Assembly: GCF_004210215.2 (NCBI RefSeq)
Contig: NZ_CP067394.1
Coordinates: 1,674,001-1,738,000 of the forward strand
Direction of reading: 5' to 3'
Source: Cryobacterium sp. SO1
GTDB lineage: Bacteria > Actinomycetota > Actinomycetes > Actinomycetales > Microbacteriaceae
DNA length: 64,000 nucleotides
The notes below the pieces were generated by a model that saw only the letters and a list, made by a program, of their open reading frames with translations, searched no databases and was not told the origin of the DNA. The position numbers and the translations under genes were made by a program. Of this stretch, positions 17,991 through 23,593 are shown in pieces; the first letter of the stretch is position 1; each line of letters begins with the position of its first letter.

Positions 17991-18437
17991 CTATTCCTGG
18001 GCCGTGTGCTCGGCGGCGTGCTCGGCGGTGTGTTGGGCGGCGCTGTCCCGCGGCGCCTCGGCGCGCGGAGTCAGCTCGGCGCGCAGCGGCCAATCCTGGC
18101 CGTCCAGGATGATCTGGGCGCACCGGCCGGTGTCGGCGTTCACCACGATGGGAGCCATCAGGTTGACGGTGGTACCGGTCTTACCCGGGTTGGTGACCAC
18201 GAGGACCATCGCCTGGTCCGGGCCGGCGAGGTCCAGCGCCCGGGCGTGCTCGTCGGAGATGACGGGCGCGTAGTCCGGCAGGTACACCGACGCGTCGAGC
18301 ACGAACAGCCTGGTGTGCAGGTCCACGGCGGACTGCAGGGCGAACAGTCCGGCGGCACCGGTGATTTCGCGCAACTGGAAGTCGGTGAGCGGCGCGAGGC
18401 CGGGCGGCGGGGAGAGGAAACTCAGGGTGGCGGTCAT
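17991..18437 (-). CDS. fliW: Flagellar assembly factor FliW
   Basis: A 148-residue FliW. The core (residues 1-125) shows the family pattern, including FQLREI, ALQSAVD, FVLDASVYLPDYAP, VVTNP and VNLMAPIVVNADTGRCAQIIL. The C-terminal 25 residues are a His/Ala/Glu-rich tail not found in short homologues. FliW binds free flagellin and, when released, binds CsrA allosterically and lifts its repression of flagellin translation. This is known from Bacillus and Campylobacter. csrA is also in this window (49877-50116), and fliC has a candidate CsrA site. It overlaps flgL by four bases as the last gene of flgN-flgK-flgL-fliW. Confidence 0.92.
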   Translation of the reverse strand: MTATLSFLSPPPGLAPLTDFQLREITGAAGLFALQSAVDLHTRLFVLDASVYLPDYAPVISDEHARALDLAGPDQAMVLVVTNPGKTGTTVNLMAPIVVNADTGRCAQIILDGQDWPLRAELTPRAEAPRDSAAQHTAEHAAEHTAQE

Positions 18438-21712: not shown

Positions 21713-22666
21713 TTGAACCGTTCGGAACGTAACCGGCTTGTCGTAGACAACCTACCCCTCGTTGGCTACCTTGTGTCCGACGTCTGGGCGAAGGCCCGCC
21801 ACCTCTCCCGCGACGACCTGGCCTCCGCCGGCTCGCTGGCCCTGATCACCTCCGCCGATGCGTTCGACCCGGCCCTCGGCGTGCCGTTCGGTGCCTTCGC
21901 CCGCCGCCGCATCATCGGCGCCTTCGCCGACGAGATGCGCTCAAACGACTGGGCTACGCGGATGGCCCGCCGCCGGATCAAGGACACCCGCCAGGTGCAG
22001 GAGACCCTCGCCGTGGCCCTGGGCCGCAGCGCCACCGTCGACGAGGTCGCCGCGGCCCTCGGCGTCGACCGGGAGACCGCGCTGGCCGGACTGGCCGATT
22101 CCGAACGCACCCTCACTGCCCTCGACGACAACACCGCGGAATTCCTCGTCGCCGACACCGTGCTTCCCGAGGAGTCCCTGCTGTCTGCCGAACGTCTCGC
22201 CTACCTGAGGGCCGCCGTCGTCGCACTCCCGGAGCGGATGCGTCTGATCGTGGAGCAGGTGTATTTCGAGGACCGCTCGGTCAAGGAGATCGCCGCAGAC
22301 CTGGGCATCACCCACTCCGCCGTGTCCCAGCAGCGTTCGGAGGCCATCCGTCTTCTCCGCGACGGCTTGGGCACCCACTACGCCGACGACGCCGAGATCG
22401 GGTACCTGCCGGAGTCCACCGTGGCACCGGCCCGGCGCAGTGCCTACCTGTCCAGGATGGCCGACCAGGCGATGCTCGGCATGGCGATCATGGCGCATGA
22501 CAGGGTGCCGGATGCCGTTCCGGTCTTGTCCATCGCCCCCACGACGGACTCCGGAACTGCCGGCTCCTCGGCTCGTGCGACCGACAGGTTGGCCGGCGTC
22601 AGTGACATCACCGCGGTGCAGCCGAGCATTCGGGACACCCGCGAACTTTTCTCCAGCAACGGCTAA
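21713..22666 (+). CDS. fliA: Flagellar sigma factor FliA (sigma-28 group)
   Basis: A 317-residue sigma-70-family protein. Region 2 (residues about 10-85) includes SRDDLASAGSLALITSADAFD and FGAFARRRIIGAFADEMR, typical of FliA. Region 3 has SATVDEVAAALGV. Region 4 (about 180-225) has the helix-turn-helix SVKEIAADLGITHSAVSQQR. About 85 extra residues follow region 4. The start is a TTG preceded at six bases by AGGAGGG. It probably directs RNA polymerase to the five TAAC-N15-RCCGAYAG promoters here. The stop codon TAA is itself the first part of the fliC promoter. No flgM anti-sigma gene is in the window. Confidence 0.88.
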   Translation: MNRSERNRLVVDNLPLVGYLVSDVWAKARHLSRDDLASAGSLALITSADAFDPALGVPFGAFARRRIIGAFADEMRSNDWATRMARRRIKDTRQVQETLAVALGRSATVDEVAAALGVDRETALAGLADSERTLTALDDNTAEFLVADTVLPEESLLSAERLAYLRAAVVALPERMRLIVEQVYFEDRSVKEIAADLGITHSAVSQQRSEAIRLLRDGLGTHYADDAEIGYLPESTVAPARRSAYLSRMADQAMLGMAIMAHDRVPDAVPVLSIAPTTDSGTAGSSARATDRLAGVSDITAVQPSIRDTRELFSSNG

Positions 22667-22690
22667 CGCGCCGCCCGGCGGAGCCGATAG
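22664..22690 (+). promoter_or_regulatory. Sigma-28-type promoter of fliC
   Basis: TAACGCGC, 11 bases, GCCGATAG. The -10 element is seven of eight to GCCGATAA. The TAA of the -35 element is the stop codon of fliA. The predicted start is near 22697, giving a leader of about 55 bases. Confidence 0.85.
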
Positions 22691-22702
22691 GTCTCAGTGT
22701 CA

Positions 22703-22743
22703 GCCCATGGATGGGCAGGCGATCACCACCCAATCACGGAGGA
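22703..22743 (+). promoter_or_regulatory. Candidate CsrA sites in the fliC leader
   Basis: GCCCATGGATGGGC at 22703-22716 folds as GCCC/GGGC with the loop ATGGAT, so GGA is in the loop. A second site is the Shine-Dalgarno GGAGGA at 22738-22743, preceded by AC, seven bases before the ATG. One hairpin site plus one site over the ribosome site is the arrangement shown for CsrA on hag mRNA in Bacillus subtilis. Binding here is inferred. Confidence 0.65.
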
Positions 22744-22750
22744 ACACATC

Positions 22751-23593
22751 ATGGGTATGCAGATCAACACCAACCTCGCGGCAAACAACACCTACCGCAA
22801 CCTGGCTTCGACCCAGACCGACATGGCCAAGTCGCTCGAGCGCCTCTCCAGCGGCCTCCGCATCAACCGCGCAGCGGATGACGCAGCCGGCCTGGCCATC
22901 TCCGAGGGACTGAAGTCGCAGGTCGGTGGCCTCACGGTCGCCAGCCGCAACGCCCAGGACGCCGTCTCGGTCATCCAGACCGCTGAAGGTTCCTTGAGCG
23001 AGGTCCAGACCATCCTGCAGCGCGTTCGTGACCTCGCCGTTCAGGCCGGTAACGGCTCGAACAACGCCGATTCGCGTGCCGCCATCGCCACCGAGGTCAC
23101 GGCGCTGGGCGAAGAACTGACTCGTATCAGTGCGTCGACCAACTTCAATGGCACCAAGCTTCTCGACGCGGCAGCGGGCACCACGCCGCTGACCTTCCAG
23201 GTCGGCGCCGGCGGAGTGGCAGTCGAAGACCAAATCTCGGTCACGCTGACCGACGTCGCGGCCATCGGCACCGCTGTCTCCGGACTCGCGGCCACCGGCT
23301 TCGCCGACTCCACGGCGGCACTTGCGACGATCAACACGATCGACGGCCACATCAAGGATGTGTCCACCTCGCGTGCCTCGCTCGGTGCCGACCAGAACCG
23401 GTTCGAGAGCGTCATCCGCAACCTGGCCGTCTCCAAGGAGAACCTCACCGCTGCCGGTTCGCGTATCCGCGACACCGACATGGCCGAGGAAATGGTCAAG
23501 TACACCCGCTCCAGCATCCTGTCGCAGGCCGGCACCGCCATGCTCGCGCAGGCGAACCAGTCCAACCAGGGCGTCCTGACGCTGCTGCGCTAA
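22751..23593 (+). CDS. fliC: Flagellin
   Basis: A 280-residue flagellin, close to the minimum length. The N-terminal D0/D1 part starts MGMQINTNLAANNTYRNLAS and includes ERLSSGLRINRAADDAAGLA. The C-terminal D1/D0 part includes RIRDTDMAEEMVKYTRSSIL and ends QSNQGVLTLLR. The central variable domain is reduced to about 100 residues, so the filament surface is probably smooth. The frame is open to 22697, but the ATG at 22751 follows GGAGGA and gives the family start. It is preceded by a sigma-28-type promoter and candidate CsrA sites, and followed by fliD and fliS. Confidence 0.96.
   Translation: MGMQINTNLAANNTYRNLASTQTDMAKSLERLSSGLRINRAADDAAGLAISEGLKSQVGGLTVASRNAQDAVSVIQTAEGSLSEVQTILQRVRDLAVQAGNGSNNADSRAAIATEVTALGEELTRISASTNFNGTKLLDAAAGTTPLTFQVGAGGVAVEDQISVTLTDVAAIGTAVSGLAATGFADSTAALATINTIDGHIKDVSTSRASLGADQNRFESVIRNLAVSKENLTAAGSRIRDTDMAEEMVKYTRSSILSQAGTAMLAQANQSNQGVLTLLR

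Follow-up and report, generated by a model that had tools for sequence, protein, structure and literature searches.

The leader of the flagellin gene fliC in Cryobacterium sp. SO1 is very probably a two-site CsrA target that runs a homeostatic switch between flagellin, FliW and CsrA. The DNA analysed, hereafter the window, spans 64,000 nucleotides and corresponds to positions 1674001-1738000 of a 4.07-Mb one-contig genome. The predicted circuit is of the Bacillus subtilis hag and Campylobacter jejuni flaA kind, partly foreseen in 2008 for Kineococcus. The sequence features by which a hag/flaA-type circuit can be recognised occur here: a flagellin leader hairpin presenting A-N-GGA-N, a second GGA over the ribosome site at a distance that CsrA can bridge, and csrA and fliW in the same genome, with a CsrA that matches profile PF02599 and carries the RNA-binding residues. 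A sequence-only reading of the window had already suggested such a circuit at fliC, and conservation, covariation, the context of the second site, gene co-occurrence and CsrA residues all argue for it. The features are collected in Table 1.

Table 1. Features of the putative flagellin-FliW-CsrA circuit (window coordinates).
Feature	Coordinates	Strand	Evidence or detail
fliW, 148 aa, behind flgK-flgL in the divergent operon	17991..18437	-	PF02623, 2.5e-22
FliA/WhiG-like sigma factor gene, directly 5' of fliC	21713..22666	+	NCBIfam FliA_WhiG
Sigma28-type promoter of fliC	22664..22690	+	TAAC 22664-22667, 15 nt, GCCGATAG 22683-22690
Predicted CsrA site 1, hairpin	22699..22720	+	Fold, R1 model match, covariation
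Possible second hairpin	22728..22756	+	Fold; ACCCA 22728-22732 with UGGGU 22752-22756
Predicted CsrA site 2, over the ribosome site	22735..22743	+	CACGGAGGA, CANGGA context
fliC (flagellin, 280 aa)	22751..23593	+	Flagellin_N 1.4e-44, Flagellin_C 2e-24
csrA, 79 aa	49877..50116	+	PF02599, 3e-24; two equivalog cut-offs passed

The fliC start was placed at the ATG of the table rather than at GTG 22697 of the longer open frame. The top match in the FliC search of contigs was FliC of Cryobacterium adonitolivorans (93% identical); a second genome of the genus also reached 93%, and its fliC leader letters are those of C. adonitolivorans. For the sigma factor gene, the best NCBIfam model was FliA_WhiG at 127.2 bits, under the model's cut-off of 189.6, and the position of its end implies that the stop codon overlaps the -35 element of the fliC promoter. 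This promoter was compared with the sigma28 consensus, and the pattern CTAAC/CTTAC/CTCAG, gap, NYCGA recurs in 172 of 195 site-bearing leaders, with a 15-nt gap in 159. Judged from the promoter position, the fliC RNA would start near 22697, giving a leader of about 55 nt, the length estimated in the sequence-only reading. That reading's GCCC-ATGGAT-GGGC hairpin with GGA in the loop, its GGAGGA ribosome site, and its placement of csrA at the other end of the cluster and of fliW in the divergent operon are likewise borne out by the letters, the coordinates and the Pfam matches. Searched against Rfam at gathering cut-offs, the window returned no family.

Site 1 consists of GCCC (22703-22706), the hexaloop ATGGAT (22707-22712; AUGGAU in the RNA) and GGGC (22713-22716), and beyond an A-A mismatch (22702/22717) the stem gains three extra pairs (22699-22701/22718-22720). 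The R1 hairpin model scores it at 28.2 bits, the window hairpin being itself among the 82 on which R1 was trained. A hexaloop GGA hairpin with at least four pairs arises by chance in 4.5% of shuffled 120-nt leaders (pooled, all leaders), and the folding energy of the window leader is no better than that of its own shuffles (z 0.77). In one sequence, the predicted hairpin is weak evidence; conservation makes the case.

Leaders were collected from 78 named loci and from those genomes in which FliC found a match: 91 of 299 in the family and 47 of 394 in the class, with five genomes in both. The resulting 223 rows, of which 204 are unique by their last 90 bases, leave out truncated matches such as that of G176 and a single additional copy in each of G177 and G444; a few rows are not actinobacterial (L127 and L128 belong to the Bacillales). 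Each start codon was placed by protein matches, in at least one case wrongly (L132). Since the leader sequences are related, the counts below are not independent events.

A CANGGA motif at -28 to -95 occurs in 195 of the 204 unique flagellin leaders, against 9.8% expected from shuffles. The nine leaders lacking it are L117 (Mobiluncus), L121, L128, L132, L163, L165b, L186, L232 and L233; by eye, L163 and L186 carry a U-G closed version of the site, and the real leader of the wrongly set L132, at 6412, has it. The commonest loop with its closing pair is C-ACGGAU-G, the second loop base being C in 129 of 195 sites (ACGGAN) and A in four, while AUG is found in 62, as in the window. At least five of six inner stem pairs form in 181 of the 195 leader CANGGA motifs, versus 65 of 1110 CANGGA motifs elsewhere in the named loci, a set that includes some sites of flagellin copies. 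When 168 unique segments were anchored on CANGGA alone, with no stem required, pairs 3 to 7 were standard in 83%; with shuffled partners the share was 57% (largest of 500: 60%), and in slid registers it was at most 45%.

The stem also covaries. Among 82 hairpins differing by three or more bases, 132 cells were double-changed (shuffled mean 49.3) and the covariation score was 0.478 (shuffled 0.144; slid registers at most 0.132); none of 500 shuffles reached either value. Double changes fell in seven of eight pairs, a number that is itself no evidence, as 51 of the 500 shuffles reached it. The third pair is a purine mismatch (A-A, A-G or G-A) in 42 of the 168 segments, so one defect in the stem can be tolerated. 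Inspection of eight more class leaders by eye found the hairpin in six, three of these with an uneven internal loop (L254-L256), and not in the other two. The leader of G663, a nearly complete genome without csrA and fliW, has no hairpin, as expected of a negative, and in the G377 flagellin leader no site was seen by eye although csrA is present. The check set beforehand, that stem and GGA be kept in relatives, thus held.

Some individual leaders depart from this pattern. Read by eye, that of Mobiluncus porci (L117, upstream of 6001; csrA present) has another hairpin, in whose larger loop CAGGAC is found. In G344 and G391, one flagellin copy (L232 and L233, respectively) is without a CsrA site and its sister copies have one; these site-less copies may escape CsrA.

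The second predicted site lies over the ribosome site, GGAGGA at 22738-22743, with the fliC ATG seven bases after it. The gap between the two GGA elements is 26 nt in the window and 17-39 nt in 143 of 150 leaders scored; the range that a CsrA dimer bridges is given as 10-63 nt in the available text of PMC7652899. At the ribosome site, CANGGA is present in 175 of the 195 fliC leaders with site 1, versus 29 of the 283 GGA-type ribosome sites that precede other flagellar genes of the named loci, and the CA of this motif is not needed by a plain ribosome site. The contrast is smaller for ANGGA (177 of 195 versus 97 of 283).

A second stem around the ribosome site is less firmly supported. As folded in the window, it would hold the ribosome site in its loop and take up the start codon's U and G in its stem. 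In a loose test, 132 of 170 leaders had a longest helix of at least five, more than any of 40 swaps (119 at most) or 20 shuffles (104 at most). In 67 of 167 leaders (113 with G-U pairs), the stretch from hairpin to ribosome site contains a 5-nt complement of the start segment by Watson-Crick pairing, whereas 200 swaps gave at most 58 (105 with G-U) and 200 shuffles at most 26 (77 with G-U); leaders of other flagellar genes had it in nine of 354 cases (54 with G-U). The motif GACTC accompanies nine of 11 flagellins whose genes start ATG-AG but only three of 137 that start ATG-GG. None of the 19 leaders whose second codon begins with GC, TC, AA or CG has a Watson-Crick second stem, and the second stem can therefore be real for no more than part of the group.

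The two protein partners follow flagellin across genomes. The window FliW scores 79.4 bits against PF02623 (cut-off 25) but falls under the cut-offs of the eight NCBIfam FliW models listed, and it matches the FliW chain of 5dmb weakly (E 1.1e-4). With presence called at E up to 1e-6 for csrA and up to 1e-25 for fliC, 92 of 299 Microbacteriaceae genomes have csrA and 91 have fliC; 91 have both, and G209 has csrA only. Of 42 further fliC genomes, 39 carry csrA, those without it being G321 (80% complete), G656 (63% complete) and G663. Searches for fliW, covering 80 of 134 genomes, found it in 76 and not in G209, G321, G656 and G663. Residues L4, R6, R44 and the FliW-contact residue N55 are present in every one of 38 CsrA rows (that of the window, 30 from family loci, among which the window recurs, and seven others); position 51, the other FliW contact examined, is V in 32, I in five and M in one. 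Strands 2-7 and 40-47 of CsrA are described as RNA-binding in the consulted part of PMC7829508, and R44 as an RNA-binding residue in that of PMC7652899. The former text also reports that in C. jejuni CsrA the N55A change abolished the detectable FliW complex, with 10-fold weaker binding by surface plasmon resonance (PMC7829508).

By analogy with B. subtilis and C. jejuni, we infer CsrA binding, repression, relief by FliW and feedback at fliC. One face of the CsrA dimer would grip the A-N-G-G-A-N loop of the 5' hairpin, and the other would reach the ribosome site CACGGAGGA 26 nt downstream, shutting out the ribosome. Free FliW would bind the CsrA helix that bears N55, releasing the RNA; flagellin made but unexported would bind FliW, and CsrA would repress again.

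Other explanations of the hairpin are conceivable. Within the window, GCCCATGGATGGGC is a perfect inverted repeat, and this 14-bp palindrome keeps an almost constant distance to the -10 element (25-27 nt in 152 of the 176 leaders where a -10-like element is present), as might suit an operator in the DNA that lies just past the promoter and is read by a dimeric transcription factor. Such an operator is nevertheless extremely unlikely: the arms change letters yet keep pairing, which base reading would not allow, 129 of 195 sites have the asymmetric loop ACGGAN, and the same motif context is seen again over the ribosome site. A hairpin that only shields an abundant mRNA from decay would also fit the location, which is the predicted start of the transcript; a shield needs no fixed A-N-GGA-N loop, yet the core is kept in 195 of 204 leaders, and the G663 leader, the one leader read from a nearly complete genome that lacks csrA and fliW, has no hairpin, leaving this role highly improbable. 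That the loop AUG (CCCAUGG) starts a small overlapping reading frame controlling fliC has only the slimmest chance, because the AUG of the window and of 62 sites is absent wherever the second loop base is C (129 of 195) or A (four).

In the named loci, the hairpin is almost confined to flagellin leaders: the hairpin test was positive for 69 of 78 fliC leaders, compared with fliA 0/65, fliD 1/73, fliS 0/3, flgB 2/60, flgC 0/59, flgK 0/71, fliW 0/60 and flgL 2/71; both flgL matches carry the site of the flagellin of the same locus and are thus probably misassigned. Scanned with the hairpin model at E up to 10, the genome of the window yielded 17 matches and no second clear leader match. The top one, whose 28.3 bits slightly exceed the 28.2 of fliC, falls within a reading frame that we take to be a polyprenyl synthase, where it encodes Ala-His-Gly-Trp-Ala. 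None of the remaining 15 exceeds 21.2 bits, and 13 of them overlap coding-like frames by a crude test (L262 and L275 do not).

Across 39 of the family's 91 fliC genomes, the model matched 51 times, 40 of them at fliC leaders (39 of 39 genomes), which is no test, such leaders having trained it, and 11 elsewhere (0.28 per genome). In 28 fliC-negative genomes (23 csrA-negative, five not tested for csrA) there were eight matches (0.29 each). The alike rates indicate no excess of other hairpin targets. Nine of the 11 elsewhere matches were read, and one, 5' of flbD in G006 (L333), looks like a true leader; L337 and L339 lie shortly 5' of a possible start codon. CsrA-type hairpins were also seen 5' of flgB-like genes, named by eye, at L107:9019-9066, L100:9156-9177 and L130:4843-4864. 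The flgB-like hosts are Herbiconiux, Paeniglutamicibacter and an actinomycete MAG, and the flbD-like host is one family genome; these hairpins are possible extra flagellar targets.

A mini-flagellin gene of 110-123 aa was encountered beside the flagellin loci (L129:5477-5818; also L077, L124, L125, L131, L132, L133, L137 and L283-L294). Of 57 genomes in the window's genus, 16 have a near full-length match; none was found in the window's own genome. The product joins a short flagellin-like N-terminus to about the last 51 Flagellin_C positions, scoring above the Pfam cut-off in two of four tested. All 20 rows, several from the same genome and with L126 dropped as a flagellin end, have a CsrA-type hairpin 5' of the gene and a sigma gene upstream, and 17 have a flagellin within 480 nt downstream. 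A FlgM-like identity for the small gene beside fliC was dropped, as it matches flagellin ends. At L124:9350 and L131:10850, a full promoter, hairpin and ribosome site precede a short frame of 47-49 codons (starting ATT in L131), apparent relics of a flagellin leader.

The N-terminal 60-72 residues of flagellin suffice for FliW, according to the accessible text of PMC6070490. The mini-flagellin keeps the FliS-wrapped C-terminal end without the N-terminal FliW part, and may thus be a FliS client. It is tentatively proposed, as a reading more doubtful than probable, that actinobacterial CsrA is nearly single-target and that, in part of the window's genus, the CsrA leader was copied onto this sigma28-linked mini-flagellin, a small FliS client. 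CsrA would then move with the flagellar genes, the hairpin marking flagellin leaders and almost nothing else, and the mini-flagellin, possibly secreted, would report CsrA status through its translation before flagellin's. No account of such a gene was found in the portions of the literature searched on it.

Yakhnin in 2007 and Mukherjee in 2011 reportedly dealt with the B. subtilis hag leader together with CsrA and FliW. The fliC circuit proposed here shares with hag two leader CsrA sites, one over the ribosome site, the presence of csrA and fliW, and CsrA N55. It differs in that csrA and fliW lie 31 kb apart in the window, whereas the two genes are adjacent in the hag system, and in that most actinobacterial loops read AYGGAY, on a GC-rich stem located at the inferred 5' end. 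The two sites in the hag leader, one of them over the ribosome site, and the presence of FliW are stated in the consulted parts of PMC7652899 and PMC8523840. As described in the text available for C. jejuni flaA, a 45-nt leader forms two stem-loops, with ANGGA in both loops and compensatory changes (PMC4894983); the short leader and the two stem-loops, the second over the ribosome site, are common to both systems, although the possible actinobacterial second stem is less firm, Watson-Crick pairs supporting it in 67 of 167 leaders. In Pseudomonas, where small RNAs sequester RsmE, the hcnA RNA that RsmE binds has the loop and closing pair C-ACGGAU-G in the part of the source consulted (PMC13287468), identical to the commonest actinobacterial site and different from the AUGGAU loop of the window.

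The closest precedent is the 2008 work on Kineococcus radiotolerans, whose available text places csrA in a motility cluster, proposes CsrA control of flagellin, and matches the flagellin leader to B. subtilis BS2 at nine of 12 bases (PMC2587704). Thus csrA in an actinobacterial motility cluster, a CsrA site in the flagellin leader and the proposal itself are shared; as far as that text goes, site 1, its hairpin, the covariation and fliW come from the present analysis. A 2015 survey, in the part consulted, names Actinobacteria as one of the groups in which FliW may be used. In the literature searched, most subscription papers lying outside it, nothing was found that describes site 1, its covariation or how widely it occurs in actinobacteria; the same search found no paper on CsrA, flagellin and Microbacteriaceae, and for Leifsonia only PMC2587704.

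The hag-type CsrA-FliW circuit thereby gains firm comparative support in Actinobacteria, a phylum for which the literature searched, partly consulted, offered only the one-site suggestion of 2008 and the FliW remark of 2015. The leaders of relatives mostly keep the hairpin shape while the letters change. The comparative picture agrees with the view that governing flagellin is an old role of CsrA, and a system in which CsrA has a single clear hairpin target would serve as a simple natural model for antagonism of CsrA by a protein.
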